DNA from: Paenibacillus ottowii
GTDB lineage: Bacteria; Bacillota; Bacilli; Paenibacillales; Paenibacillaceae
Reading direction: 5' to 3'
DNA: 64,000 nt
Assembly (NCBI RefSeq): GCF_006874425.1
Contig: NZ_VIJZ01000001.1
Span: 372,001-436,000, forward strand
Positions 7,910 through 33,663 of this stretch are shown piece by piece (positions within the stretch are counted from its first letter, which is position 1; each line of letters begins with the position of its first letter). The notes below the pieces were generated by a model. The model had not been told where the DNA came from. It saw only the letters and a list, made by a program, of their open reading frames with translations, and made no database searches. The translations under genes and the position numbers were made by a program.

Positions 7910-8092
7910 ATGAATAAGGAAACAGAATTAGGGGAGAATAGCCCTCTTATTCGAAACAACGCACGGAAAGCAGGCAAAGCGGCTATCCACTTGGACATCC
8001 GGAACATTTTGCTCCAATGTGGGATCACGACATCGGAATGGCTGAATGACGATGTAGATGACATCAAGTGCCGGAAGGACAAGCGCATGTAA
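7910..8092 (+). CDS. Small hypothetical protein, 60 residues
   Basis: Not recognised. A short charged protein with no membrane segment, starting MNKETELGENS and ending CRKDKRM. AGTGAGGT lies 10 nt upstream, and an isolated TATAAT (7821-7826) in AT-rich DNA could be its -10, but I see no matching -35. It sits in the gap between the hydrolase operon and the XRE gene and runs toward the latter. Could be a real small gene or a chance frame. Confidence 0.35.
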   Translation: MNKETELGENSPLIRNNARKAGKAAIHLDIRNILLQCGITTSEWLNDDVDDIKCRKDKRM

Positions 8093-8140: not shown

Positions 8141-8512
8141 TCATTTTTCCATCATTCGTTCCATTCGAACAAATGCGATAAAGCGCTTGGCTTCTTCCTC
8201 AGTCAAGGTGCGTCCGTCAATCGTCAGGTTAAAACGTTGCAGGATATCCTCGTCGGACAGTTCAAGCTGATCCACAAATTCCCTCACATCTGAATCTAAT
8301 ATGGCTGTCGGCTGGCTCGTACGTCCCACCAAATAATCGATGGTTACCCCGAAAATATCAGCGAGCTTGGTCAGGGTCTCAAAGTCTGGTTTGCGTCTAT
8401 TTTTTTCATAGTGAGAAAGAGCCGCCCGCGTAATTCCGAGGGATTGCGCTAATTCCTCTTGTTTTAATCCCTTATGTTCTCGTAATTCAGCGATGCGGGT
8501 TCCATAATTCAT
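8141..8512 (-). CDS. XRE-family helix-turn-helix transcriptional regulator
   Basis: DNA-binding repressor-type protein of 123 residues. Residues 5-60 form a canonical Cro/C1 helix-turn-helix (RIAELREHKGLKQEELAQSL, then GITRAALSHYEKNRRKP and IFGVTIDYLVG). The acidic C-terminal half (EFVDQLELSDEDIL, LTEEEAKRFIAFVR) is likely a dimerisation region. AGGAGG precedes the ATG. It is divergent from the exopolysaccharide operon and shares its promoter region, which holds a 15-bp palindrome GATACA-N3-TGTATC. The same palindrome sits in the lasso peptide promoter at 30874-30902. I infer it binds both; the binding itself is not shown. Confidence 0.9.
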   Translation of the reverse strand: MNYGTRIAELREHKGLKQEELAQSLGITRAALSHYEKNRRKPDFETLTKLADIFGVTIDYLVGRTSQPTAILDSDVREFVDQLELSDEDILQRFNLTIDGRTLTEEEAKRFIAFVRMERMMEK

Positions 8513-8566: not shown

Positions 8567-8619
8567 TTGACAAGATACAATTTGTATCATAAATTGATTA
8601 TGTAGTTACATAATGTATC
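8567..8619 (+). promoter_or_regulatory. Promoter and palindromic operator of the exopolysaccharide operon
   Basis: TTGACA (8567-8572), a 17-nt spacer and TAAATT (8590-8595). The spacer contains the palindrome GATACAA-T-TTGTATC (8574-8588). A second palindrome ATTATGTA-GT-TACATAAT lies at 8597-8614, and a further half-site TGTATC at 8614-8619. An operator between -35 and -10 is the classic position for repression. The divergent XRE gene is the obvious candidate regulator. The -35, spacer operator and -10 are almost identical to those at 30874-30902. Confidence 0.75.
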
Positions 8620-8838
8620 TGTATTTCATAGTTTTCACTTGTATCTTCATTTATATACCCTAAGAGGCCACCGATGATTGAGCATTTCGTGCGTATTCGC
8701 TGGCTAGACCTTCTATGCGCTATTATACAACATTTTACTATAGATTAGAGGGTCATGCATCGTTCTTTTCCCGTCATGCAGAGGATCAGTACAAGCGTTA
8801 TTCCATCGAAAACAAGTCAAGCAGGGAGGACTGGTCTT

Positions 8839-9588
8839 GTGCAGTTGAAAGAGTACATCCGTTTGATCCGCAAAAGAATGTGGTTGATTGGCAGTATTGT
8901 ACTGCTGGTGTGTACTGTAGTAGGCATAAAAAATGTATATTTTACCCCGCAGGTTTATGAAGCTACTGCAAAGCTCATTATTAACCAGACGCCACGGCCG
9001 GATCGTGCAGGTGTTGTCGATTACAGTGTAGTGCAAACCAACATAGCCTTAACGAACTCCTATAAGCAAATTATGATCTCCTCGGCGATTATGGATCAGG
9101 TGGTCGCCAGCTTCCCCGATCTTAAGGTTACTCCGTCAGCTTTGGCGCAAAAATTGAGAGTGAACACCGCAGGTGATTCACAGGTCATGGATGTTACAGT
9201 TCGCGACTTGTCGTATACAAAGGCTGTGAAAACCGTCAATGCGGTAGCCAAAGTATTCAAACGGCAAATCCCCTCTATCATGAAAATGGACAATGTCACC
9301 ATCCTAAGCGAAGCCAGTTTGAATGATCCAGCAGTTCCTGTGAACAATAATCCCGCTATACAGATTTTTATTGCTTTTGCCATTTCTTTATTGTTGGGAA
9401 TAGGCTTGGCGTTTTTGCTGGAGGTATTGGATGATACATTTAAGAATGAGGAGGATGTTGAAAAAGAGCTCGGTCTGCCTACCTTATCCCTGATTTCAAA
9501 AATGAAAAAAGAGGATAGACGCTCTGACAGCTCTACTACAACTCCTAAACAGATAGGTGAGGGACAATATGCCGCGATTAATCAATAA
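8839..9588 (+). CDS. Wzz/YveK-like polysaccharide co-polymerase / kinase modulator
   Basis: Membrane protein that partners with a BY-kinase to control chain length and export. It has 249 residues, an N-terminal TM (MWLIGSIVLLVCTVVGI), an extracytoplasmic Wzz-type domain starting YEATAKLII, and a second TM (about residues 173-195, IFIAFAISLLLGIGLAFLLE). A cytoplasmic tail follows (DDTFKNEEDVEKELGLPTL) that normally activates the kinase. GTG 8839 is chosen from the GGGAGG site 10 nt upstream and the family-typical MQLKEYIRLIRKR start; an in-frame ATG at 8755 would add 28 atypical residues. It overlaps the kinase gene by 20 bp. Confidence 0.85.
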   Translation: MQLKEYIRLIRKRMWLIGSIVLLVCTVVGIKNVYFTPQVYEATAKLIINQTPRPDRAGVVDYSVVQTNIALTNSYKQIMISSAIMDQVVASFPDLKVTPSALAQKLRVNTAGDSQVMDVTVRDLSYTKAVKTVNAVAKVFKRQIPSIMKMDNVTILSEASLNDPAVPVNNNPAIQIFIAFAISLLLGIGLAFLLEVLDDTFKNEEDVEKELGLPTLSLISKMKKEDRRSDSSTTTPKQIGEGQYAAINQ

Positions 9589-10246
9589 TCAGCTTGTTAC
9601 ATCCTTACATGCTCAGTCTTCCGTTTCGGAGGAATACCGCATGCTTCGCACTAACATCCAGTTTTCTTCTGTAGACGAGCCAATTGAAGTGATGATGGTG
9701 GCTTCTGCTCAGGCGGGTGAAGGCAGAACAGTCACGATTAGCAATTTGGCTGTAACCTATGCACAAGAGGGGAAAAAAGTGCTGGTTATGGATATGGATC
9801 TGCGTCGATCCTCTTTGCATCATATGTTTGGTTTGCGCAATCATACGGGACTGACACGGGTACTTGCCAATCAACAGCCATGGCAGGAGGTGGTTCAGGA
9901 AACCGAGATTGATCATCTGCATGCAATCACAGCTGGGCCGAATCCACCCAACCCGTCCGAGATGCTTAGTTCCCGTAGAATGAAGGCTCTACTAGTTGAC
10001 CTAAAAGAACATTATGACGTGATTTTGATGGATACGCCCCCACTGCTGTCTTTTCCGGATGGTCTCATTGTAAGCGCCATGTGTGATGGTGTCATTTTGG
10101 TAGTGCAGGCAGGGAAGGTCAAAAAGGATGTTGTTAAGAAAGCGAAGGCAAATTTGGAAAGAGTAAAGGCGCGCATTTTGGGTGTAGTGCTCAATAACGT
10201 GAAGCGCCGCACCGATCGTGGTATGGAGGAACGCAATCTGACATGA
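9569..10246 (+). CDS. CpsD/YwqD-type tyrosine kinase-like ATPase with altered Walker A
   Basis: Member of the BY-kinase family, expected to act with the preceding membrane modulator. It has 225 residues. It shows the N-terminal EEYRMLRTNIQFSS, Walker A' LVMDMDLRRSSLHH, NPSEMLSS, and Walker B VILMDTPPLL. Oddly, the P-loop reads AGEGRT, so Arg53 (AGA, 9725-9727) replaces the lysine that contacts ATP phosphates. The C-terminus (RRTDRGMEERNLT) also lacks the usual tyrosine cluster. It may be catalytically weak, or a scaffold/regulator. ATG 9569 follows GGTGAGGG. Confidence 0.85.
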   Translation: MPRLINNQLVTSLHAQSSVSEEYRMLRTNIQFSSVDEPIEVMMVASAQAGEGRTVTISNLAVTYAQEGKKVLVMDMDLRRSSLHHMFGLRNHTGLTRVLANQQPWQEVVQETEIDHLHAITAGPNPPNPSEMLSSRRMKALLVDLKEHYDVILMDTPPLLSFPDGLIVSAMCDGVILVVQAGKVKKDVVKKAKANLERVKARILGVVLNNVKRRTDRGMEERNLT

Positions 10247-10330
10247 ATAAATCGAAGGAAATAAGAATATATAAAATTCTTTTAACAATGTATAAATAAT
10301 ATTTATCAATGAGGAGCGAGGTGATGAGAC

Positions 10331-11029
10331 GTGTCTTCTTCCCGCTCGAACGAGGCCGAAGCGTTGGGCGCGTCAGTGGATGTATATTCGGTCGCTCATG
10401 GGCTTGAACGACGACAAGGATGGAGCATATATCCGCTCGTAAAGCGAAGTATGGATATTATATTGTCTTTTATTGGAATTATCGTACTGTGCCCGGTATT
10501 TCTACTCGTCATTTTGTTGATTAAGCTGGAGGACCCCAAGGGGAGTGCATTATTTTATCAAATACGTATTGGCAAACATGAGCGGCCGTTTCGTATGATC
10601 AAATTTCGTTCCATGGTGTCTGATGCCGAAGCCAGATTGTCTGCACTGCTGGAGGAAAATGAAATTGAGGGTGCAATGTTCAAAATGCGGGACGATCCCC
10701 GCATTACCCGTGTCGGCCGCTTTCTTCGCAGAACGAGTATCGACGAACTACCGCAACTCTTCAATGTACTGCGTGGACATATGAGCCTTGTAGGACCCAG
10801 ACCCCCTCTGCCAAGAGAAGTCCATGATTACACCATGAGGGATAAGCTACGTCTGACAGTTACACCGGGCTGCACTGGACTATGGCAGATCAGTGGTCGC
10901 AATCATCTAAGCTTTGACCAGATGGTTGAACTGGATTTGGAGTACATATCTAGACGCAGTTTCCGCACGGATATGATCATCATGCTGAAAACATTTCGTG
11001 TGCTGTTGGGCTCCAAAGATGCATATTAA
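10331..11029 (+). CDS. Undecaprenyl-phosphate sugar phosphotransferase (priming enzyme)
   Basis: Starts repeat-unit assembly by moving a sugar-1-phosphate from a nucleotide sugar to undecaprenyl phosphate. It has 232 residues. One hydrophobic hairpin (KRSMDIILSFIGIIVLCPVF, about 38-65) precedes the bacterial sugar transferase domain: FYQIRIGKHERPFRMIKFRS, the DDPRITRVGRFLRRTSIDEL block and the LVGPRPP signature. Short form without extra N-terminal TMs, as in WbaP/EpsL C-terminal-type enzymes. GTG 10331 follows GAGGTGATG. The sugar (glucose or galactose) cannot be read from sequence. Confidence 0.93.
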   Translation: MSSSRSNEAEALGASVDVYSVAHGLERRQGWSIYPLVKRSMDIILSFIGIIVLCPVFLLVILLIKLEDPKGSALFYQIRIGKHERPFRMIKFRSMVSDAEARLSALLEENEIEGAMFKMRDDPRITRVGRFLRRTSIDELPQLFNVLRGHMSLVGPRPPLPREVHDYTMRDKLRLTVTPGCTGLWQISGRNHLSFDQMVELDLEYISRRSFRTDMIIMLKTFRVLLGSKDAY

Positions 11030-11062
11030 AGTCAATTTAACAAAGAGGGGTAGGAGAGAAGG

Positions 11063-13011
<1,949 letters not shown>

Positions 13012-13134
13012 GAGGTGAAAGAGGCCACCCGCTGGCTGGGGGGTCTCTTCGTTGTACACGATTTCAGCTGCATTAACAGATCAACAGGTTATAAAGCTGT
13101 GTTTGAGGTCATTTTTCAAGATGGAGTAGAACCT

Positions 13135-14478
13135 ATGACATTAGTCAAGAAACGTGTCAAACCGCGCAGAAGCTTATTGGTGAATACATCCTGGCTGTTC
13201 GGTGACAAAATGATCCGCATGGTGTTCGGGCTGGCAGTCAGCATTATCATGGCGAGGGTGTTAGGACCAGAGGAACTGGGAAAATGGAATTATGCGGAAT
13301 CCTTTTTCGGAATGTTTCTAATTTTCACGACCCTTGGCTTTGATTCAATATTAGTACGCGATCTTGTCAAAGATCCCAAGGATGAGCACGAGCTATTGGG
13401 GACAGCGGTTCTGCTGAAGTTGTTAGGTACTTTGGTAGCCATTGTACTGTCCTATTCCTTTATTTCACTGCTCAGACCGGAAGACAGTTCAGTACGGTTA
13501 ATCAATCTGATTCTGGCTACAGCCTCGGTATTTCAGTTGTTTGATATTATCGACTACTGGTTCCGTGCGCAGATGTTGTCCAAATATACGGTTGTTGCCA
13601 AGAATACCGCCTTTGTCCTCGGTTCCACCGCAAAAATCGTTTTACTGTTGTCCGGTACTCCAATCTGGACAGTGGCGTTGTGTGCTCATGGAGAGTTTCT
13701 GCTGGGGAGCTTGCTGCTGCTGTATTTCTTCCATAAGGAAGGACGGCGTGTGAACAAGTGGACGTTCCGCTTCACGACTGCTCGGCGAATCATGGATCAC
13801 AGCTGGCCGCTTATTTTGTCCTCCTCCGCTGTGTATGTGCAGGCACGGATCGATCAGGTCATTATCGGTGAAATGTTGGGAAACGAAGCGGTCGGGCAAT
13901 ACTCCGTTGCACTCCGACTCATCGAGGTGCTGGGCTTTATCCCGGTCGTTCTAACAACAGCCTATGCTCCAGTGGTAACGCGTTCCAAGCAAACAGGAAG
14001 CGATGAATACAGACGGACGTTGTCTAACGTGTATCGGCTGATGTTTATATGCTTTCTTGTGACTTCAGTTCCCTTATTTTTTCTATCCCAATGGGTAGTA
14101 GTTGTGCTGTATGGGAGAGAGTTCACTGAAGCAGGCTCGCTGCTGTCACTGTTTGCGATTCGTCTATTTTTCACCAACTTTAGTGTCGCCAAAAGCTTGT
14201 TTATCACCAACGAAAATTTGTTCAAATACACGCTGCTGACCTCGGTAATTGGTGCGGTTACGAATATCGCCTTCAATTACGCGCTGATCCCATGGCTTGG
14301 GGTTCGAGGGTCCTTAGTGGCGACGATTTTGTCCTTTACGATATCTGTATTTCTAATGGATTTGTTGTTTAAGGAAGTCAAAGCCAATTTGGGTTGGATG
14401 ATGAAGTCCATTCTGACCTTCTGGCATGTTCATATTACAGTACCGAAAGTTGGAGAGAACAATCATGATACCGATTAA
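13135..14478 (+). CDS. Wzx-type oligosaccharide flippase (MOP superfamily)
   Basis: Flips lipid-linked repeat units across the membrane. 447 residues with about 12-14 hydrophobic segments, an N-terminal NTSWLFGDKMIRMVFGL typical of RfbX/Wzx, and a conserved ARVLGPEELGKWNYAESF. ATG 13135 follows ATGGAG by 8 nt; the open frame begins at 13015 but those 40 residues do not fit the family. A 123-bp leader with a GC-rich patch separates it from gmd. It overlaps the next gene by 14 bp. Confidence 0.9.
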   Translation: MTLVKKRVKPRRSLLVNTSWLFGDKMIRMVFGLAVSIIMARVLGPEELGKWNYAESFFGMFLIFTTLGFDSILVRDLVKDPKDEHELLGTAVLLKLLGTLVAIVLSYSFISLLRPEDSSVRLINLILATASVFQLFDIIDYWFRAQMLSKYTVVAKNTAFVLGSTAKIVLLLSGTPIWTVALCAHGEFLLGSLLLLYFFHKEGRRVNKWTFRFTTARRIMDHSWPLILSSSAVYVQARIDQVIIGEMLGNEAVGQYSVALRLIEVLGFIPVVLTTAYAPVVTRSKQTGSDEYRRTLSNVYRLMFICFLVTSVPLFFLSQWVVVVLYGREFTEAGSLLSLFAIRLFFTNFSVAKSLFITNENLFKYTLLTSVIGAVTNIAFNYALIPWLGVRGSLVATILSFTISVFLMDLLFKEVKANLGWMMKSILTFWHVHITVPKVGENNHDTD

Positions 14479-15733
14479 ACCGTTTGTTCGGCATGAGGAA
14501 CAGTGCCCGCATTGTGGAGGTACGTTACATGGTGGAGAGGTGCTGTGGCAGGGAATCCACGTATGTGTCAGTACTAAATGTGAGGGTTGCGGACGTGAAT
14601 ACCTTGAGGACATGAGGGTGGGTCATGCGACGTATTCACCTTATCGTGTAGAAATGCCTGACTATACCCTGACCGGTGATGCGAAGTCAAGAAAATGGCT
14701 CGGAGAGCCTTTGCGGCAATCGTTGATGAATCCTTCCTATGATTTAGCAGTCGGTATGACCGTGCATAAAAAGAAAGCTTCTTCGCGTGTAATCATTGTC
14801 AACACTATAGATTATTTGTATGGCCATGCATTGCTCAAGCTGCTGAATGTTCAGCGCGAATATGAGCAATCGCCGGAATTAGGGATCATCGTTATTGTGC
14901 AAAAGTCGCTGGAGTGGATGGTGCCAGCATATGTATCTGAGATTTGGACGGTTGATGTACCGTTCAGCAAGGCACGAAACTTTTATCCTATGCTGCATCA
15001 TCGGATGATTGAGGAATTGATGCGTTTTGATGAGGTGTACATCAGTCCGGCATATTCACATCCCAACCAGTTTGAAATTGAGCAATTTACAGGTGTTGCG
15101 CGTTATGACGAGGAACGTGAACCGAATCCACGTATTACCTTTGTATGGAGAGAAGACCGCTTGTGGAGCGGCAGCCATCATATGGCCAGAGCGGTGCAAA
15201 AGTTTCCACAACTCAAACGTGGACTGAAACCGCTAATTTACCATCAACGGAGCAAAATCATCAGGCTGTTCCGCAGGCTGAGAGAAAGCTTCCCTGATCA
15301 TCGTTTTACTGTTGCGGGACTCGGGCGCACAGGGAGCTTCCCGGCATGGATTTCTGACGAGCGTGTATCACGCTTCGACCGGGAAAGTGAGCTGCGGGTA
15401 TGCGAAATATACGCAGCCAGCCGATTAGTCATCGGCATTCATGGCTCCAATATGCTGCTGCCTTCTGCACATGCAGGTATGACGATCGATCTGATGCCTA
15501 AGGACCGATGGGGCAATTATGCCCAGGACATTTTATTTCACGAAACGGATCATCGGCTTACAGCCTACAAATATCGCTTTGTGCCGATGGAATCAAGCGT
15601 GACCTTGGTAGCGGGTATGGCAGCCGCTCAGCTTAAAGGGGCAGACCATTTTAATATGCAGATGATGGAGGAAAGACAGCGGCAGGGGGACCATTCAAGT
15701 TGGAGGGGGAAGGCCGCTTCGGGCAGGGTTTGA
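14465..15733 (+). CDS. Putative glycosyltransferase-like protein with N-terminal zinc ribbon
   Basis: Not assigned to a family with confidence. 422 residues. Residues about 14-40 hold CPHCGG and CEGCG, a probable Cys4 zinc ribbon. The rest is soluble, with an alpha/beta character and a C-terminal VIGIHGSNMLLPSAHAG block resembling the nucleotide-sugar loop of DUF563/GT61-like or ADP-heptose-type transferases. It is translationally coupled to the flippase (14-bp overlap, GGAGAG before the ATG) and is the last gene before a repeat-bounded gap. A role in repeat-unit assembly or modification is inferred from position. Confidence 0.6.
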   Translation: MIPIKPFVRHEEQCPHCGGTLHGGEVLWQGIHVCVSTKCEGCGREYLEDMRVGHATYSPYRVEMPDYTLTGDAKSRKWLGEPLRQSLMNPSYDLAVGMTVHKKKASSRVIIVNTIDYLYGHALLKLLNVQREYEQSPELGIIVIVQKSLEWMVPAYVSEIWTVDVPFSKARNFYPMLHHRMIEELMRFDEVYISPAYSHPNQFEIEQFTGVARYDEEREPNPRITFVWREDRLWSGSHHMARAVQKFPQLKRGLKPLIYHQRSKIIRLFRRLRESFPDHRFTVAGLGRTGSFPAWISDERVSRFDRESELRVCEIYAASRLVIGIHGSNMLLPSAHAGMTIDLMPKDRWGNYAQDILFHETDHRLTAYKYRFVPMESSVTLVAGMAAAQLKGADHFNMQMMEERQRQGDHSSWRGKAASGRV

Positions 15734-15773
15734 TCTTGGAGCGGTTAATGTGGATGGCAGTCCGCTGCGGGAC

Positions 15774-15850
15774 GGGTTTGATCTTCCGATCGCTGTTGAC
15801 GTGGGATTCTTTGGTTTGAATAAGCCCTATAGAGGGCGGAATCCCACGGC
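15774..15850 (+). repeat. Dispersed palindromic repeat, copy C (truncated)
   Basis: Carries GTTTGATCTTCCGATCGCTG, then GTGGGATTC and GAATCCCAC arms around a different loop. The right outer block found in copy A is missing. Confidence 0.7.
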
Positions 15851-15910
15851 ACTTTATGCCTGCATTCCCTTTTTTAAGATGGGGTGACTTTATGGAAACG
15901 GCGGTCAGTA

Positions 15911-16045
15911 GCGGAGCGGTCCATTTGAATCTGAAGAAGCGCTAGCGTCTGCCTTTGCAGTGGAATTCCTACCTCGTAATGTTTTATATACCCTGGAATC
16001 CCACTGCAACAGCGATCGGAAGATCAAATGGAGTGCGCAGCGGCC
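15911..16045 (-). repeat. Dispersed palindromic repeat, copy D
   Basis: GCGGAGCGGTCCATTTGAAT, GAAGAAGCGCTAGCG, GCAGTGGAATTC and GGAATCCCACTGC arms, then AACAGCGATCGGAAGATCAA. Closest to copy A in inverted orientation; it ends about 55 bp before the next glycosyltransferase. Confidence 0.8.
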
Positions 16046-16101
16046 TCTGAACCCTCCGCCTCCCATAATTCACCCAATATGAAATGGCAGGAGTACTGAT
16101 G

Positions 16102-17316
16102 ATGATTCCAAAAATATTGTATCTTCGCAACTTTGCCAGCAAGGTGAATGGAGCCTCATACAATTTGCAGGAAGTTGGCTTGGGTAAAGCGCTCGTCCGT
16201 AAAGGCTTCGATTGCGATATTGTTTACTACAACGATCGTAAGGAGACCCATCTGGAACAGATTTACCAGCACGAAGGATGCACCTTGCGTATTATCTGGC
16301 TGCACGGGTTCAAGTTTTTAAGCAACAGCATCTACAGAGATGTTCTCAAAGATTCTTTTCTGAAAGCTTATGACCTGGTCATTACTACAGAATACAACCA
16401 GATTATGACCTATCTGCTTTCCCGCAAATGCCCCGACAAGCTGGCGCTATATCACGGACCATACCGGGATAACACGCATGCGCTGATCCGCAAACTGTAC
16501 GATGCTATGCTGCTGCCTAAGGTGACAAAGTCTCTACGCCGAACCTATGTTAAATCCGATCTGGCCAAGCGCTATCTGGAGAATAAAGGCTTTAACAACG
16601 TAATAACGATCGGAGTCGGACTGGATCGCAGCAATGTAGAGAAAGGATTCAACAGTGACGACAACAGTGGAGCGCGCGAGGAAAACCGTGAAGTTGCGAA
16701 TGAGCTGCGTCGGATCGGAGATCGCCCGGTGCTACTGTATGTCGGTGTACTGGAGGAACGAAGAAATATACGTTTTATGCTGAATACGTTCAAAAGAGTA
16801 CTCCAAAGGCATCCTGCCTGCCTTTTGTTAATGGTTGGGAATGGACGGAAAGTAGATACGGATCGCTATTGGGCATATGCCCAGCAACTGGGGTTGACGG
16901 ATAGCATTATACATTTTCCAAGAGTGGAGCAACGTCATCTGTGGCAGATCTACGGAGCGGCAGATGTGATGCTGTTTCCGACGCAATACGATATTTTTGG
17001 TATGGTGCTGCTGGAAAGTATGCTGTTCCGCGTTCCGATTATTTCCTCGGTGAACGGTGGCTCGGTTACCTTGATTGAGGATGGGGTAAGCGGAGTGATG
17101 CTGAGAAGTTTTTCGGAAGAGGAATGGGCAGGTCGCATAGGCACGCTGCTGGAGAATGCTGAGCTTAGACGAAGCTTGGCCGAACAAGCATTCCTTACGA
17201 TCGAGCGGATGTCGTGGGATCGGATTGCGGATGATATCGTAAGCCAGCAACGGGCTCAACCTATGAGTTCCAATCACGTTATGCAATCAACACAGGAAAG
17301 AGGGGCAGCCACGTGA
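16102..17316 (+). CDS. GT4-type glycosyltransferase
   Basis: GT-B retaining transferase that adds a sugar to the lipid-linked repeat unit. 404 residues: N-terminal ILYLRNFASKVNGA with the G-A-S loop, central VLLYVGVLEERRNIRFML, and the C-terminal donor site FPTQYDIFGMVLLESML with the E-x7-E pattern. GGCAGGAG is 8 nt before ATG 16102; ATGs at 16084 and 16099 are alternatives. It overlaps the next gene by 4 bp. Donor and linkage are not readable from sequence. Confidence 0.9.
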   Translation: MIPKILYLRNFASKVNGASYNLQEVGLGKALVRKGFDCDIVYYNDRKETHLEQIYQHEGCTLRIIWLHGFKFLSNSIYRDVLKDSFLKAYDLVITTEYNQIMTYLLSRKCPDKLALYHGPYRDNTHALIRKLYDAMLLPKVTKSLRRTYVKSDLAKRYLENKGFNNVITIGVGLDRSNVEKGFNSDDNSGAREENREVANELRRIGDRPVLLYVGVLEERRNIRFMLNTFKRVLQRHPACLLLMVGNGRKVDTDRYWAYAQQLGLTDSIIHFPRVEQRHLWQIYGAADVMLFPTQYDIFGMVLLESMLFRVPIISSVNGGSVTLIEDGVSGVMLRSFSEEEWAGRIGTLLENAELRRSLAEQAFLTIERMSWDRIADDIVSQQRAQPMSSNHVMQSTQERGAAT

Positions 17317-18554
17317 GTCAACAGGTTAGCAGACGAATGACCCCGCCTGTAAGCAAAGTACTGATCATCCATAACTTTTATCAGCAAAGTGGGGGAGAAG
17401 ACAAGGTTGTCGAGCAGGAATCGGCTATGCTGCGTTCCAGAGGAATAGAGACGGAGCATTATTATGTGCATAACGACAGCATTAAAAGCAAAGGGTTGGC
17501 CAACATGGCCAAGCTGGCGGTGGAGGCGACATGGTCCTTCCCGGAATTCAAAAGGATCAAAGAGCTGCTTTTGCGGGTGAAACCGGATGTGGTACATGTG
17601 CACAATTTTTTCCCAGTTATATCCCCTTCGGTCTATCATGCCTGTGAACGGCTGGGGATTCCGGTGGTCCAGACCCTGCATAATTACAGGCTGATTTGTC
17701 CGGCGGCAACCTTTATGCGAGGGAATGAGGTTTGTGAAAAATGCTTGCACGGCTCGCTGCTGCATTCCATCCGTCATGGATGTTACCGAGGCTCGCAGCT
17801 GCAGACGATTCCGGTGGCGGCGATGATTAAGTTCAACGAGCTGATCGGCACATGGCAGCACAAGGTAAGCCGCTATATTGCGCTGACGCAGTTTGCACGG
17901 GACAAATTTGCCGAAAGCGGCCTTCCGCTGGACCGCATCGCAGTGAAACCGAATTTTATCCATCATCAAACGGTGAAAGCCAAGTATGATCCTAATGATC
18001 GTTATTTGTTGTTCGTGGGGCGGATTTCCGCTGAAAAGGGGGTTCGCAATTTGCTGCAGGCCTGGTCACAGCTGGAAAATCGAGACGGATTGAGGCTACT
18101 CATCATTGGGGATGGTCCGGAAAAGGCTGAACTGGCTGCAGCTTATCCGCAGGAAGATATTCAGTTTCTCGGCAAGCAGGATGGAGACACGGTGTTGAAT
18201 TTTATGAGCCGGGCCATGTATGTCATGGTGCCTTCCATTTGGTATGAAGGTTTTCCGATGACGATTGTAGAGTCCTATTCCGTAGGAACGCCAGTATTGT
18301 GCAGCCGAATCGGCGCACTGGAGGAAGTCGTGAAGGACGGGGTGACGGGTTTCCATTTTCAACATGACGATCTGGAAAATATAAAGACCGTGATTCGCCA
18401 TGCAGTTGCCTATGAGAACTATACAGCTATGCGGCAGAAGGTGGCGGAAAACTATGCCGCACATTACACGGAAGAAGTGAATGTGAAGCAACTGTTGGCG
18501 ATATATAGCGAGGTCATGGAGGAATGTGACAATGAAGCAGCCGCCCCAGTATAG
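17313..18554 (+). CDS. GT4-type glycosyltransferase
   Basis: 413 residues, GT-B fold. N-terminal IIHNFYQQSGGEDKVVEQE, a DVVHVHNFFPVISPSVYHAC motif, FVGRISAEKGVRNLLQAW and the donor-binding VPSIWYEGFPMTIVESYS with the E-x7-E pair. GTG 17313 overlaps the previous stop (GTGA) and follows AAAGAGGGG, so the two transferases are translationally coupled. Probably builds the repeat unit; sugar specificity unknown. Confidence 0.9.
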   Translation: MSQQVSRRMTPPVSKVLIIHNFYQQSGGEDKVVEQESAMLRSRGIETEHYYVHNDSIKSKGLANMAKLAVEATWSFPEFKRIKELLLRVKPDVVHVHNFFPVISPSVYHACERLGIPVVQTLHNYRLICPAATFMRGNEVCEKCLHGSLLHSIRHGCYRGSQLQTIPVAAMIKFNELIGTWQHKVSRYIALTQFARDKFAESGLPLDRIAVKPNFIHHQTVKAKYDPNDRYLLFVGRISAEKGVRNLLQAWSQLENRDGLRLLIIGDGPEKAELAAAYPQEDIQFLGKQDGDTVLNFMSRAMYVMVPSIWYEGFPMTIVESYSVGTPVLCSRIGALEEVVKDGVTGFHFQHDDLENIKTVIRHAVAYENYTAMRQKVAENYAAHYTEEVNVKQLLAIYSEVMEECDNEAAAPV

Positions 18555-19341
18555 AGTCGGAAGGATTGCGAGCACAGATGTTGCAGCACTGACATTTCAG
18601 GAGACGGTACATACGCTGGAACAATGGGCAGTCGGACGAAAGGACAGCTATGTATGTATTTGCAACACCCATTCCATTGTCACGGCCGGGAATCAGCCCG
18701 AGTTCCACGAAGCGCTCACTCAGGCTGATTTGTGTACTCCAGACGGTATGCCACTGGTATGGGCGCTCAAGCTGTACGGGTTTGAGCGTCAGGATCGGGT
18801 GGATGGTCCCAGTTTGATGCTGAAGTTGTGCGAACGTGCGCCACAAATGGGGGTGAGCGTATACTTTTACGGCAGTACGCCAGATACGCTGGATAGCTTA
18901 AAAGACAGGATAGGGCAGGATTATCCTGGAATTCGTATCGCGGGCAGCTTTTCACCGCCATTTCGTGAACTTCAGCCAGCTGAGGAGAAGCGGATCGTTG
19001 AGGAAATCAATGCCTCAGGTGCGCATATCATATTCGTTAGTCTGGGCTGCCCAAAGCAGGAAATCTGGATGCATCGCAACAAAGATCGTATCCGAGGCGT
19101 GATGATCGGAGTAGGGGCAGCCTTTGACTATATTACAGGCAAGGTTCGCAGACCGCCGCTAACGGTACAAAGGCTGGGACTGGAATGGCTTTACCGTCTG
19201 CTCTGTGAGCCAAAACGTTTGTGGAAGAGATATGCGTATAACAATCCAATGTATATCTATCGTTTTCTCAAATCCTATCGGCATAATAAAAGGCTCACGC
19301 TCTATCATAATCGGCATACAGGGAGAGGCATAGAGAAGTAA
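18532..19341 (+). CDS. WecG/TagA/CpsF family glycosyltransferase (GT26)
   Basis: Membrane-associated transferase of the N-acetylmannosaminuronate/TagA family, usually adding the second sugar to a lipid-linked acceptor. 269 residues with VCICNTHSIVTAGNQPEF, the TPDGMPLVWALKLYG active-site block (catalytic Asp), YFYGSTPDTLD, FVSLGCPKQEIWM, GVGAAFDYITGKVRRPP and GLEWLYRLLCEPKRLWKRY. ATG 18532 lies 9 nt after GGAGG; GTG 18526 is too close. It overlaps the previous gene. Confidence 0.92.
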   Translation: MKQPPQYRVGRIASTDVAALTFQETVHTLEQWAVGRKDSYVCICNTHSIVTAGNQPEFHEALTQADLCTPDGMPLVWALKLYGFERQDRVDGPSLMLKLCERAPQMGVSVYFYGSTPDTLDSLKDRIGQDYPGIRIAGSFSPPFRELQPAEEKRIVEEINASGAHIIFVSLGCPKQEIWMHRNKDRIRGVMIGVGAAFDYITGKVRRPPLTVQRLGLEWLYRLLCEPKRLWKRYAYNNPMYIYRFLKSYRHNKRLTLYHNRHTGRGIEK

Positions 19342-19394
19342 AGCGGAGCAAAAGTACGATGCAATGAGACAGCATGTAAAAGGGGGAATTGTTT

Positions 19395-20735
19395 TTGAAG
19401 CTATGTGTGGTAGGTGCCGGATATGTTGGACTGGTGTCAGGGGTCTGTTTTGCCGCGCTTGGAAATACCGTCGTCTGTATCGACCAGAATGAAGATAAAA
19501 TTCGGCAGTTACGTGCAGGCGGGGTACCGATTTATGAACCAGGCTTAAAGGCTCTAATTAAAGATAATGTGGAGCAGGGGCGGCTGAGCTTTACAACAGA
19601 TATCGCGGCCTCGGTGCAAGCAGCTGATATTGTTATTTTGGCGGTAGGCACGCCTTCATTGCCGAGTGGAGAAGCCAACCTGTCCTATATTGAAGAAGCA
19701 GCGTGCGAGGTGGCAGATGCCATGAATGGCTACAAGATCATTGTCACCAAAAGCACGGTGCCTGTCGGAACGAACGAGCGTATTCAAAACTGGATGGCGA
19801 GTCGCACGAACTATCCTTTTGGCATCGCTTCGGTTCCTGAATTTTTACGAGAAGGCTCGGCAGTGATAGACACTCTACAGCCAGATCGGATCGTCATTGG
19901 AGCTTCTGATCCGCATGTGGCGGCGGTGCTAACTACTCTGCATGAGCCGCTGACAACGAATATCTTAACCACGGATATCCGTTCGGCCGAGATGATCAAG
20001 TATGCGTCGAACGCTTTTTTGGCGACCAAAATTTCGTTTATCAATGAGATTGCTAATATTTGTGAAAAGGTAGGGGCAGACGTTACACGCGTGGCCCACG
20101 GTATGGGGCTGGACCAACGGATCGGTTCCTCCTTTTTGTCCGCTGGTATTGGCTATGGGGGTTCGTGTTTTCCCAAGGATACACAGGCTTTAATTCAAAT
20201 TGCAGGCAACGTAGATTATGAATTTAAGCTGCTGAAATCCGTAGTAGAGGTGAATCAGGGACAACGTTTTAACGTGATCCGCAAGCTGAAAGAGGCACTG
20301 GGTGAGCTGGAAGGAGCTACGATTGGCATATGGGGGCTGGCCTTTAAACCGAATACAGATGACGTAAGAGACGCTCCGGCGATGGATATCATGCAGTCGC
20401 TGCTGGAGGCAGGGGCGCACATTCGTGCATATGACCCGATCGCTACCGCTAACTTCCGGCGATTGCTGGACAGCCCGGAAATACAGTGGACCGATAGTGC
20501 GCGAGAAGCAGCGGTAGGGTGCGATGCATTGTGTCTTCTGACAGAATGGGAGGAGTTTGGTGAGGTCGGATTGGGTGAACTGAACGAGCTGATGAAGTAT
20601 CCCATTATGATTGACGGGCGCAATGTGTATAGGGAAGAACAAATCAGACAAACTTCCTTTGCATACTATTCTGTTGGTAGACCACAGATGAACAATCTGG
20701 ATATAGATCGTCATCAGTCTGTAGTGAATCCGTAA
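19395..20735 (+). CDS. ugd: UDP-glucose 6-dehydrogenase, second copy
   Basis: Full-length paralogue of the enzyme at the left edge (446 residues), producing UDP-glucuronate. GAGYVGLVSG dinucleotide motif at the N-terminus, TKSTVPVGTNERI, catalytic Cys in GGSCFPKDTQ (near residue 258) and GLAFKPNTDDVRDAP. TTG 19395 is preferred because AAAAGGGGG ends 8 nt upstream and the family starts MKLCVVGAGYVGL; the TTG at 19389 is only 2 nt from the site. Long stretches such as TKISFINEIANICEKVGADV are identical in both copies. Confidence 0.95.
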   Translation: MKLCVVGAGYVGLVSGVCFAALGNTVVCIDQNEDKIRQLRAGGVPIYEPGLKALIKDNVEQGRLSFTTDIAASVQAADIVILAVGTPSLPSGEANLSYIEEAACEVADAMNGYKIIVTKSTVPVGTNERIQNWMASRTNYPFGIASVPEFLREGSAVIDTLQPDRIVIGASDPHVAAVLTTLHEPLTTNILTTDIRSAEMIKYASNAFLATKISFINEIANICEKVGADVTRVAHGMGLDQRIGSSFLSAGIGYGGSCFPKDTQALIQIAGNVDYEFKLLKSVVEVNQGQRFNVIRKLKEALGELEGATIGIWGLAFKPNTDDVRDAPAMDIMQSLLEAGAHIRAYDPIATANFRRLLDSPEIQWTDSAREAAVGCDALCLLTEWEEFGEVGLGELNELMKYPIMIDGRNVYREEQIRQTSFAYYSVGRPQMNNLDIDRHQSVVNP

Positions 20736-20748
20736 AGGGAGGCTGCGT

Positions 20749-21726
20749 ATGAAACGATGGCTGAAGGTGACGTTGGGCGCCGTGGCGTTATTGGTGGTAG
20801 GAGGGGCCGCCTATACCACCTATGTGTATCATTCCTTTAAAACAGCGGCGAATGCGATGTATCATCCGCGCAGCATCGTGCAGCCCGGAGCCGTCTCTAG
20901 CCTTGCAACGGGCGGAGTGGGGCGCTCCGTGGGTACAGACACTGGAGCGAGTACACCCAATCCGGCAGCCATCTCCCAGTTCAAGCCGTTCACCGTGCTG
21001 GTGCTGGGTGTAGATCGGCGGCCGCACGATCCAGGTCGATCCGATACGATGATCGTTCTATCTGTGAATCCCGCCAAGGGTTCGATGTTGATGTTCAACA
21101 TTCCACGCGATACGCGAACAGAGTTGATGGGTAGAGGGCGTGATGACAAAATCAATCACGCGTTTGCTTTCGGAGGCGTGGATATGTCGATCCGTACGGT
21201 AGAGCATTTTTTGAACCATTCGATAGATTACTATGTACAAATGAATATGGAAGGGTTTGCGAAAATGGTGGACCTTGTGGGGGGAGTCGAGGTTTACAAT
21301 CCGCTTGATTTTCAGTATGAGGGGCATCATTTTGCGCAGGGGAATTTGAACTTGAACGGAACTGAAGCATTGGCCTATGCCCGTATGCGATTTGATGATC
21401 CGCGTGGGGATCTCGGAAGGAACGCCCGCCAGCGAGAGCTGCTCAAGCAAATTCTGGCCCAATCCATCAGCGAAGAAGGGCTGTTGCGAGTAAAACCGAT
21501 CCTGGAGGCAGCAGGGAAACAGATTCGCACAGACATTAGCTTTGACGATATGAAAACCTTTCTGACCCAGATCGGCCCTTCTCTTAAGCAGACGGATACC
21601 GTTGAGATCAAGGGACATGGGAGCAAAATCAACGGCGTGTATTATTACATCGTAGATGAGCCGGAACGCCAACGCATCCATGGAATATTGGAGAAGCACT
21701 TGCTCACAACTGCCCCATCGCCTTAG
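20749..21726 (+). CDS. LytR-CpsA-Psr (LCP) family glycopolymer ligase
   Basis: Transfers polymer from the lipid carrier to the cell wall. 325 residues: N-terminal TM (VTLGAVALLVVGGAAYTTYV), low-complexity linker, then the LCP domain with VLVLGVDRRPHDPGRSDTM, NIPRDTRTEL, GGVDMSIRTVEHFLN, DLVGGVEVYNPLDF and RMRFDDPRGDLGRNARQREL, which carry the conserved Arg and Asp residues. GGGAGG lies 8 nt upstream. Last gene of the exopolysaccharide operon, consistent with anchoring the product to peptidoglycan. Confidence 0.93.
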   Translation: MKRWLKVTLGAVALLVVGGAAYTTYVYHSFKTAANAMYHPRSIVQPGAVSSLATGGVGRSVGTDTGASTPNPAAISQFKPFTVLVLGVDRRPHDPGRSDTMIVLSVNPAKGSMLMFNIPRDTRTELMGRGRDDKINHAFAFGGVDMSIRTVEHFLNHSIDYYVQMNMEGFAKMVDLVGGVEVYNPLDFQYEGHHFAQGNLNLNGTEALAYARMRFDDPRGDLGRNARQRELLKQILAQSISEEGLLRVKPILEAAGKQIRTDISFDDMKTFLTQIGPSLKQTDTVEIKGHGSKINGVYYYIVDEPERQRIHGILEKHLLTTAPSP

Positions 21727-30873: not shown

Positions 30874-30925
30874 TTGACAAGATACATTATGTATCATAAA
30901 TTATAATAAAAATACGATGTGTATC
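30874..30925 (+). promoter_or_regulatory. Promoter and palindromic operator of the lasso peptide cluster
   Basis: TTGACA (30874-30879), 17-nt spacer, TAAATT (30897-30902). The spacer holds the palindrome GATACAT-T-ATGTATC (30881-30895), with a further half-site TGTATC at 30920-30925. From TTGACA to TAAATT it matches 8567-8595 at all but two positions, both inside the palindrome centre. I infer regulation by the XRE protein encoded at 8141-8512. Confidence 0.75.
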
Positions 30926-30965
30926 TATTAAAACATCTCTGAGCAGAGGTAGAGGAGGAGTGTGC

Positions 30966-31560
30966 TTGATTGACAAGCAAGGCGGAAAGCTCGTATTTCT
31001 ATTGAGTGTCCCTCGAAGTGGAAGCTCGCTGCTAACCGCTATTTTGCAAAACCATTCTCGCCTGTTTGCCACACCTCTTCCACTTGCATACCCGCTTATG
31101 TATGAACAATTCGTAGCTAATCCAACGTTGGAGATCGAGAAGCTGTGTCATTTTCTGGGGGTCCATTATGAGCCGGGGATGGAAAGGTACGGGAACTTTG
31201 CGGATACGCCTCAATCCAGTCTTTTTTATAGCATGGGAGCGGGTGATCCGTTTGTCATAGAGCATGAACAGGCGCATCAGAATTCAGTACATAGCTGGCA
31301 ACATCTGTTGAGTACAATGGTAATTGAACTGTACACACCAATTCCTCCAACAAAGTGGCTTTGAATGGAAGACAGCTTATCGAATGCTGGAAGAACATGA
31401 TGCGTATAACAAGGACTTAATGACAATTGCAACTCATCATGCTGCACCTCACACCACGGCAGAGATGGACATGGCACAGATGGTGAGTAATAGACGCATT
31501 CAATCGCTGGGCGTCTATAGTGTTATCAAGTATCGGAAAAGAAAAGGGGGGAGAACGTGA
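30966..31560 (+). pseudogene. Decayed sulfotransferase at the head of the lasso cluster
   Basis: The N-terminus keeps the PAPS-binding loop (LVFLLSVPRSGSSLLTAILQ). Without the expected middle region of more than a hundred residues, it runs straight into a C-terminal block (YEQFVANPTLEIEKLCHFLG) characteristic of these enzymes. A frameshift near 31324-31335 then moves the tail (GFEWKTAYRMLEEHDAYN) into another frame, which ends at 31558-31560 overlapping the cyclase GTG. TTG 30966 follows AGAGGAGGAG. I judge it nonfunctional: internal deletion plus frameshift. Its intact ancestor was probably a tailoring enzyme translationally coupled to the cyclase. Confidence 0.75.
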
Positions 31561-33482
31561 GTGCAATTGCCGGAATCTATAGATTTGGGCATGCGGCTGT
31601 ATGTGCTGAAGAAGGCGAGAAAATGATGCAAACCTTGCAAAAATATCCCGCCGACCGCGTGTGCATTTGGCATGAAGGTTCCATTTTTTTGGGATGTCAT
31701 GCCCAGCACGTGACCCCTGAATCTATTCATGAGCATCTTCCCTTTTATGATGAGCTAAGGGATTTGGCCATCACGGCCGATGCGATCATTGACAATCGTG
31801 CTGAGCTGTTTGAACGGCTGGCAGTTGGGCAGGGGCAGCGGCAAGATATCACAGACAGCGAGCTGATTTTGCTGGCATACGACAAATGGGGTGTAGATGC
31901 AGCCGGCTATCTAATAGGTGATTTTGCCTTTGTCATTTGGGATGCTAAAGAACATCGATTATATGGTGCTAGAGATATGACAGGCAATCGTACGCTGTAT
32001 ACCTACCAACATGACGGAGGATTTGCGTTTAGCACGGTAATCGCTCCGCTATGGGTTCTGTCCTCTCTGAGAAAAGAACTGCATGAACCCTGGCTGGCCG
32101 AATTCTTATCGATCCGTGCGATGCAGGAATCGGTCGATATCGGGACGACCGCCTACAAGCATATTAACCAGTTGCCTCCCGCACATTGGTTCACCATGGA
32201 AGAGGGAAAACAAACGCTCCATAAGTATGCATGTCTGGAGGAGGTAGAGCCACTGCGGCTCAAAACAGGGGGCGAATACATAGAAGCTTTCCGCGAGGTA
32301 TTCTCACAGGCGGTGAATGCCCGGTTACGGACGCATCGGGCTGTAGGGGCTGCCCTGAGCGGGGGATTGGATTCCGGAGCGGTTGCCAGCTTTGCCGCGC
32401 CATCGCTGCACTTACAACATAAGCCGCTACATGCTTACAGCTATGTTCCTGTACAAGATTTTACAGATTGGACACCGCCTACATTGCTGGCGAATGAACG
32501 CAGCTACATTCATTCCACGGCTCGTTATGTGGGCAACATTCAAGAAAATTATATGGATTTTGAAGGGAAAAGCCCGTTTTCTGAAATTGATATGTGGCTG
32601 GAGTTGATGGAAGCTCCCTACAAATATTTTGAAAACTCCTTCTGGATCAGGGGTTTTTATGAAAAAGCTCAGGAACACAATGTCGGTGTTCTGTTGACTG
32701 GAGCACGCGGGAATTTTACCGTATCGTGGGGGCCTGCGCTGGACTATTACGCCCGTCAGTTTCGTCGTTTGCACTGGCTGCAATCCTTGCAGGGGGTGTG
32801 GCAATACAGCAAGCTTACAGGCAATCGTATGTCTCATCTACTCCCCGTGGTGTTGAAAAAAGCCACTTCACTTGAAGCCTGTACATGGTTGCGACACAGC
32901 CATCGAAGTCCAATTCCATCACTGATTCACCCGGAGTTTGCCAAAAGGATGAATGTAGAAGATATTCCTGTATTGAGTGGCACCGGTTGGAGAAAAAGTG
33001 CCGATCAGACAAGAAAAGAGAAGTTTTCAAATTTGGCGATTGCCAACAAAAATGGTGTCATGGCGACCAAGCTTTCACTCCGTTATGGCCTGTGGGAACG
33101 TGATCCGACCGGAGATAGCCGTGTCATTCGCTTTTGTTTATCGGTGCCATTTGAACAATATGTACAAAACGGTCGGGACAGGGCCCTCATTCGTAAAGCT
33201 ATGCGTGATCATCTTCCTGATGATGTTCGATTGAATCAGCGAGTACGCGGCGTACAGCCTGCGGATTGGCTACATCGTATGATTCCTTGTTGGGATGAGT
33301 TTATGGGAGAGCTGCAAGTGATGTGTCATGATTTAAGAGCTGCCGAATATCTCAATATGGACTATATTAAGACCGCGATGGCGAACTACCGAAGTCCCCG
33401 TCCGGAACAGGCATCTGATCCGAATATACGACTGTTCATGCATAGCTTGATCGTGTACCGTTTTCTCTGTGGATTGAACTAA
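31557..33482 (+). CDS. Lasso peptide macrolactam synthetase (cyclase, C protein)
   Basis: Asparagine-synthetase-like enzyme that adenylates the Asp9 side chain of the core and closes the ring onto the new N-terminus. 641 residues. The N-terminal Ntn-like domain starts MSAIAGIYRFG without the catalytic Cys of true glutamine amidotransferases, as usual for lasso cyclases. The ATP-pyrophosphatase motif LSGGLDSGAVASF is near residue 265. GTG 31557 overlaps the stop of the decayed sulfotransferase frame and follows AAAAGGGGGGAG. It lies directly upstream of the precursor gene. Confidence 0.92.
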   Translation: MSAIAGIYRFGHAAVCAEEGEKMMQTLQKYPADRVCIWHEGSIFLGCHAQHVTPESIHEHLPFYDELRDLAITADAIIDNRAELFERLAVGQGQRQDITDSELILLAYDKWGVDAAGYLIGDFAFVIWDAKEHRLYGARDMTGNRTLYTYQHDGGFAFSTVIAPLWVLSSLRKELHEPWLAEFLSIRAMQESVDIGTTAYKHINQLPPAHWFTMEEGKQTLHKYACLEEVEPLRLKTGGEYIEAFREVFSQAVNARLRTHRAVGAALSGGLDSGAVASFAAPSLHLQHKPLHAYSYVPVQDFTDWTPPTLLANERSYIHSTARYVGNIQENYMDFEGKSPFSEIDMWLELMEAPYKYFENSFWIRGFYEKAQEHNVGVLLTGARGNFTVSWGPALDYYARQFRRLHWLQSLQGVWQYSKLTGNRMSHLLPVVLKKATSLEACTWLRHSHRSPIPSLIHPEFAKRMNVEDIPVLSGTGWRKSADQTRKEKFSNLAIANKNGVMATKLSLRYGLWERDPTGDSRVIRFCLSVPFEQYVQNGRDRALIRKAMRDHLPDDVRLNQRVRGVQPADWLHRMIPCWDEFMGELQVMCHDLRAAEYLNMDYIKTAMANYRSPRPEQASDPNIRLFMHSLIVYRFLCGLN

Positions 33483-33534: not shown

Positions 33535-33663
33535 ATGAGTAAAAAAGAATGGCAGGAACCCACGATTGAGGTGCTGGATATTAACCAAACTATGGCAGGT
33601 AAAGGCTGGAAGCAGATTGACTGGGTGTCAGACCACGATGCCGATTTGTATAATCCTAGCTAA
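33535..33663 (+). CDS. Lasso peptide precursor (paeninodin-like)
   Basis: 42 residues. Leader of 20 residues with the RRE-recognition pattern W6-x-x-P9-x-I11 (EWQEPTIEVLDINQTM) and the required Thr at position -2 (T19). Predicted 22-residue core begins AGKGWKQID and continues WVSDHDADLYNPS. Ala1 to Asp9 gives the nine-residue macrolactam; a 13-residue tail threads through. The C-terminal Ser is the expected target of the kinase encoded next. GGGGAGGTGAT precedes the ATG. Cleavage and ring size follow from family rules, not from data. Confidence 0.93.
   Translation: MSKKEWQEPTIEVLDINQTMAGKGWKQIDWVSDHDADLYNPS

Follow-up and report, generated by a model that had tools for sequence, protein, structure and literature searches.

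A divergent, autoregulated layout is typical of ICEBs1 ImmR and of prophage XRE repressors such as Xre of PBSX. The SinR box has the sequence GTTCTYT. In Bacillus subtilis, SinR negatively controls the exopolysaccharide (EPS) operon epsA-O, according to the part of PMC7911366 considered here. In that same part, deletion of pep-1 in Paenibacillus polymyxa WLY78 gave no EPS or biofilm phenotype under the conditions used, and one reverse-oriented gene is drawn between pep-2 and pep-1 in the cluster of strains WLY78 and DSM 365. No regulator of pep-1 is proposed there except for LytR, listed in Table 1 as a transcriptional regulator, and the main text uses neither the word promoter nor the word repress.

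A link between lasso peptides and surface polysaccharides has been described in P. alginolyticus, where the lasso gene pbaB1 and the EPS-related gene espG rise together in stationary phase, and paeninodin-type lasso/LPP clusters adjoin capsular polysaccharide loci (PMC13381572, in the part considered here). That part calls the roles of paeninodins unknown, treats biofilm formation only as speculation, and names no operator or regulator for the lasso-EPS pair. Neither a regulator common to lasso and EPS genes nor the operator described below was found in the titles and abstract openings listed by searches of the open-access literature. GATAC/GTATC is absent from the main text of PMC12565409, which deals with XRE motifs and whose supplementary table may hold the motif.

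Two promoters with an operator in the spacer

The window analyzed here, a stretch of 64,000 nucleotides of Paenibacillus ottowii, contains two promoters 22 kb apart that are almost identical. The first reads TTGACA-A-GATACA-ATT-TGTATC-A-TAAATT (8567-8595) and the second TTGACA-A-GATACA-TTA-TGTATC-A-TAAATT (30874-30902), so that only the 3-bp centre of the palindrome distinguishes them. In both, the 17-bp spacer holds a 15-bp palindrome, and both score 10/12 in a promoter scan. These observations confirm the earlier note, which had described the near-identical pair and the palindrome between -35 and -10. All elements lie on the plus strand. The promoter of the exopolysaccharide operon (pep-1) is composed of a -35 TTGACA (8567-8572), the operator O1 GATACA-ATT-TGTATC (8574-8588), which was followed through genome, genus and family searches, and a -10 TAAATT (8590-8595). 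The promoter of the lasso operon has its -35 TTGACA at 30874-30879, its O1 GATACA-TTA-TGTATC, followed through genome and genus searches, at 30881-30895, and its -10 TAAATT at 30897-30902. In addition, a palindrome search detected a second operator (O2) at each promoter: GTTACATAATGTATC (8605-8619), with one mismatch, 31 bp downstream of O1 in pep-1, and AATACGATGTGTATC (30911-30925), with two mismatches, 30 bp downstream of O1 in the lasso promoter. The O2 of pep-1 falls inside the range marked previously (8567-8619), in which second operators had not been mentioned as such.

The sites are rare. With up to three mismatches, the 29-bp pattern matches the window twice, both times exactly, and matches none of 100 shuffles. 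A search of the whole genome (5,509,884 bases) with the 22-bp motif TTGACA-N-GATACA-N3-TGTATC returned exactly two exact copies, which are these two promoters alone. The bare palindrome has three exact copies in the genome, compared with two for a reversed control, and 15 copies at one mismatch, compared with six. The 12 inexact copies include the O2 of pep-1 (L176) and a tandem pair before a Wzy gene; of the others, seven fall within open reading frames and two are intergenic (L177, L184). At up to three mismatches, the window has 29 copies of the palindrome alone where 24.1 are expected, which is no enrichment, and the signal therefore consists of the exact sites and their conservation.

Since the core promoters are near-identical over 29 bp, they might owe their likeness to chance or to a recent promoter duplication in this genome, with no regulatory meaning. 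Chance was rejected by the shuffles (0/100), and a reversed control of the motif was absent from both genome sets described below, of 75 and 394 genomes. Recent duplication was rejected as well: the flanks of the two promoters look unrelated by eye, and across the genus each promoter class has flanks of its own while the palindrome is kept as these diverge. An origin of this kind is hardly credible.

The operons downstream

The first promoter precedes an exopolysaccharide operon of 12 genes (8839-21726, plus strand). According to Pfam, it encodes Wzz, a BY-kinase, a sugar transferase, the GDP-fucose enzymes Fcl and Gmd, a flippase, a protein without a Pfam match, two glycosyltransferases, WecG/TagA, the UDP-glucose dehydrogenase Ugd and a LytR-CpsA-Psr protein. 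These genes, pepO to lytR, stand in the same order as in pep-1 of P. polymyxa WLY78 as given in Table 1 and the other parts of PMC7911366 considered here, the comparison being one of function and order rather than of sequence. The start of the first gene was set at a GTG (8839) that follows AGGGAGG, which gives a product of 249 aa, while the longest open reading frame begins at 8755; PepO of WLY78 has 249 aa in the same Table 1. The gap between pepS and pepT (15734-16083) measures 350 bp here and 1.98 kb in WLY78, in that part of the source.

The second promoter precedes a lasso operon on the plus strand. Its first gene is a remnant of a sulfotransferase-like gene (30960-31560), which has about 430 aa in relatives and is broken in this genome, where an internal stretch was lost and the frame changed. 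It is followed by a lasso cyclase, the Asn-synthetase-like protein C (31557-33482; Pfam Asn_synthase and GATase_7), which scores 353 bits with the NCBIfam model lass_lactam_cya, under its cut-off of 525. The precursor peptide (33535-33663) has 42 aa and a WxxP leader motif, and homologues are present in all five related lasso loci examined. From its sequence, the core probably starts at GKGWKQID. Pfam further recognizes, between 33800 and 38862, an HprK-like kinase (Hpr_kinase_C, score 24, under the cut-off of 33.3), a PqqD-like RRE (B1), a transglutaminase-like peptidase (B2), NTP_transf_5 and an ABC exporter. The paeninodin-type set, taken from the feature list in the part of PMC13381572 considered here, is thus complete, with WxxP precursor, cyclase, B1, B2, HprK-like kinase, NTP transferase and ABC exporter.

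Conservation within the genus

The exact 22-bp motif occurs in 67 of the 75 genomes of the genus, in 93 copies (reversed control pattern, 0). By their coordinates, 65 copies have a lasso cyclase at most about 1.5 kb downstream, 27 are next to an XRE orthologue and one lies elsewhere, before another Wzz/BY-kinase operon that adjoins a short XRE paralogue (G071, contig 112). The surrounding genes were read at 62 sites, made up of 60 loci and the two of the window, and comprise 42 lasso operons, 19 polysaccharide-type operons divergent from XRE and the single other Wzz/BY-kinase operon; the remaining 31 copies were assigned by their distance to a cyclase or XRE gene. The downstream operon was thus read at 19 of the 27 XRE-adjacent sites. 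Promoter alignments show the operator columns to be better conserved than the flanks. The operator link between lasso and EPS loci persists where these are hundreds of kb apart, as in G020 (642 kb).

A lasso cyclase was found in 72 of these genomes (E <= 1e-80), and 65 of the 72 have the exact site before it; this is the unbiased figure, as the 42 loci classed as lasso were chosen for the exact motif. Six of the other seven genomes were examined, G011 being left out, and all have near versions of the site in the lasso locus. There is one mismatch in G003, G008 and G010, two in G014 and three in G023, where the site belongs to a promoter directed away from the cyclase, toward the remaining lasso genes. 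The sixth genome, G009 (L297, contig 7), has a palindrome with one mismatch 89 bp before the cyclase and a second one about 340 bp off, at a divergent promoter that faces the other way.

The XRE orthologue is present in all 75 genomes (E <= 1e-30), and the exact motif stands beside it in only 27 of them. A further 15 XRE loci of the genus lacking the exact site were inspected, from 14 genomes plus the second XRE gene of G071. Eleven have a site at one or two mismatches, often with GATACG. The four without any site at up to three mismatches are the second XRE gene of G071 and the loci of G017, G022 and G074, the only three genomes of the genus in which no lasso cyclase match was found.

The second operator is likewise recurrent. 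Among 102 promoters, 65 were retained as distinct (identity below 85% across 110 bp). O2, at up to three mismatches, is found at +30 to +34 in 27 of the 28 distinct promoters of the genus; 19 of the 37 from other genera have it between +31 and +40, with most at +33 to +36. Offsets outside +27 to +34 averaged 0.18 promoters each. None of the seven distinct promoters of XRE-like genes has an O2.

The XRE protein as candidate repressor

Divergent from the first site, as had been pointed out earlier, is a gene for an XRE-family regulator of 123 aa (8141-8512, minus strand). Its HTH_3 domain matches Pfam with an E value of 9.9e-20 and 70.8 bits, against a cut-off of 23. The recognition region R-A-x-L-S-H-Y-E-K is invariant in 24 aligned homologues. 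The C-terminal half is in part well conserved and has AlphaFold helices at 74-83, 87-93 and 105-121, predicted with moderate or low confidence; this half may receive the signal. Judged by its position, the reverse-oriented gene between pep-2 and pep-1 of P. polymyxa should be the xre orthologue. The divergent layout makes autoregulation of xre plausible. The promoter scan found no minus-strand promoter for xre beside the first site. The 40 bp or so before the TTGACA of the EPS promoter are near-identical in several species (catattgtcgtaaatcaaaagaaccatgtccaaatactgc; L064, L067, L070, L073, L076, L088, L102). This stretch is better kept than the leader and might be the promoter of xre or a different binding site. 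A 60-aa open reading frame (7910-8092), convergent with xre and without a Pfam match, is kept in all seven P. polymyxa-group loci examined, at 60-80% identity, and is a candidate partner or antirepressor.

The assignment of the operator to XRE was examined through presence and absence in the family. The motif was found in 167 of 394 genomes (reversed control, 0) and the XRE orthologue (E <= 1e-25) in 250. Motif and XRE occur together in 167 genomes, the motif without XRE in none, XRE without the motif in 83 and neither in 144 (Fisher p 3e-48, a value that ignores common descent). The association is visible inside single genera too: in g8, 31 genomes have both, none has the motif alone, five have XRE alone and 64 have neither (p 6e-21, again ignoring common descent), and in g3 one genome has both and 39 have neither. 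Every genome of g1, g2 and g15 has the XRE gene, so that presence and absence are not informative there. In a sample of the class, none of 381 genomes outside the genus has the motif; 361 of these lie outside the family, and the many unrelated copies that would have spoken against the regulon proposed in the earlier note are therefore not seen. At 80 named XRE loci, the divergent site was found at up to one mismatch in 54, at two or three in 18 and at more in eight, and the opposite strand gave no site better than three mismatches. Conversely, 60 XRE-negative genomes were chosen; a lasso cyclase is present in 36, with 39 matches, and 30 loci were inspected. Within 1.5 kb upstream of the cyclase, 29 of the 30 loci have nothing better than three or four mismatches and one has a site with two; as this stretch contains no sulfotransferase-like gene, a promoter farther upstream could be missed.

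The operator could be real and yet be bound by a different protein, for instance a paralogue of XRE or a dimeric factor unrelated to it, with the orthologue beside pep-1 a bystander. Other genera do encode additional XRE proteins whose recognition region is similar, and the promoters of some of these contain the operator; four XRE loci of the genus have no near site. Against this, the motif follows the orthologue without exception in the 394 genomes. Furthermore, among 14 other XRE relatives examined in the P. ottowii genome (two further matches without a locus were left out), 11 align over the recognition region, none of which reads TRAALSHYEKNR and all of which lack TRxxLSHYExxR. As for the other three, one gave no alignment and two a partial one, one of these agreeing at 7/10 residues. 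A binder other than the orthologue is thus improbable.

Further targets and other genera

The operator is also found in a second layout, in which two palindromes 20 bp apart surround a -10-like TATTAT before genes for a Wzy_C polymerase/ligase or for Acyl_transf_3, a product inferred to modify the polymer. At one mismatch, this tandem layout occurs in 15 of the 75 genomes of the genus, at 28 places (control, 0). All 28 places precede Wzy_C (15) or Acyl_transf_3 (13) genes and belong to the P. polymyxa group, and the 15 genomes are the same 15 whose XRE is at least 93% identical. The regulon leans to surface polysaccharide and lasso peptide. Conservation lends strong support to the proposal of a small regulon that unites a surface polymer with a lasso peptide. 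The regulon is also larger than the two promoters on which the proposal was based. In pep-2 (paenan), the major EPS operon, no site at up to one mismatch was found in the 20 kb examined, and control of paenan is therefore not claimed.

Outside the genus, 40 loci among the matches listed have 17 sites before Wzz/BY-kinase operons, three before sugar transferase genes, 10 before an XRE-like gene, one in an XRE-EPS context and nine in others. Given these varied contexts, the motif outside the genus is not confined to the two kinds of operon. A second XRE gene in g2 (open reading frames of 111-150 aa; L115, L116, L118, L125, L129, L131, L135, L137 and L138) has the operator in its own promoter, without O2 in the distinct ones. 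The sites before XRE-like genes in g2 suggest autoregulation of this second XRE, with its similar recognition region. Short XRE paralogues (66-119 aa) are divergent from operator-bearing polysaccharide operons in L111, L143, L146 and L147; they have a near-identical recognition region and consist of the DNA-binding domain with little C-terminal part. In other genera, where some XRE paralogues resemble the orthologue in the recognition region, its presence is no proof that it is the binder.

Proposed mechanism

A palindrome between the -35 and -10 elements is in the classical position for a steric repressor. We propose, with a probability of roughly 85%, that the conserved XRE is the repressor of the polysaccharide and paeninodin-type lasso promoters. 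Judging from the arrangement of the sites, the 123-aa protein (8141-8512) would act as a dimer, bind the 15-bp palindrome and shut out RNA polymerase. The weaker O2, about three helical turns downstream (30-36 bp), may add cooperative binding or a block to transcription. The predicted targets are the divergent pep-1-type EPS operon and the lasso operon of paeninodin type, joined in the P. polymyxa group by the Wzy_C and Acyl_transf_3 genes. A signal would lift repression, and the polymer, probable polymer-modifying and lasso genes would be switched on together. The absence of a phenotype in the pep-1 deletion would fit a repressed operon, although it proves nothing.

Tandem sites and a variable O2 spacing, mostly 30-36 bp and 20 bp at other targets, allow more than simple blocking. 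The palindrome might therefore be bound by an activator or a dual regulator, with XRE helping transcription at some targets. This is an unlikely alternative in view of the 28 distinct promoters of the genus, where the palindrome lies between TTGACA and a TAAATT, TAGAGT, TAAAGT or TAAGTT 17 bp on, and repression by XRE remains the preferred reading. It would leave a single candidate gene for the control of both operons, and a means of activating polysaccharide and lasso clusters that are silent. For a family of bacteria used in agriculture and EPS production, it would also point to a candidate repressor of polysaccharide genes whose 15-bp operator is defined.

Comparison with known systems

Among solved structures, ICEBs1 ImmR (7t8i) is the best sequence match to the DNA-binding domain of XRE (E 2.9e-15). 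Unlike ImmR and the prophage repressors, the XRE described here is fixed in the genus (75/75), stands beside polysaccharide genes and has lasso genes as a second target. Membership of the RstR phage repressors (NCBIfam NF041951) was rejected, at 64.7 bits against a cut-off of 80. PDB entry 9sf2, named 'Transcriptional regulator', matches nearly the whole protein, its C-terminal part included (profile positions 2-119, E 6.5e-14), and differs from it in the recognition region of the alignment.

The solved proteins related to XRE by sequence also include SinR (1b0n; E 1.1e-6 over profile positions 3-81). The likeness is that of a small XRE (HTH_3) protein acting as negative regulator of an EPS operon, a role which here is predicted from the position of the operator. 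No C-terminal domain of the SinI/SinR type was found in Pfam up to E 10 in three orthologues, a range in which HMMER drops most matches above 0.1, and membership of the SinR family was rejected for lack of this domain. The operator, the 15-bp palindrome GATACA-N3-TGTATC, is unlike the SinR box, and its targets include the lasso operon. More speculatively, XRE may play the part of SinR in the Paenibacillaceae and switch surface polysaccharide throughout the family. The paeninodin-type lasso peptide would then be a working part of the surface programme and not an antibiotic in its own right, and an XRE-polysaccharide circuit that already existed would have captured the lasso operon no later than the root of the genus. 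We regard this wider reading as tentative and, taken as a whole, somewhat more doubtful than probable. If it is true, the lasso peptide would belong to the matrix, modify the polymer or act as a feedback signal to the switch.

Finally, the clusters of P. alginolyticus, in the part of PMC13381572 considered here, have the same enzyme set and are adjacent to their polysaccharide loci, while in the present genus the operator is shared even between distant loci. Such a shared operator, kept across the genus even at distances of hundreds of kb, is evidence of selection for joint expression.
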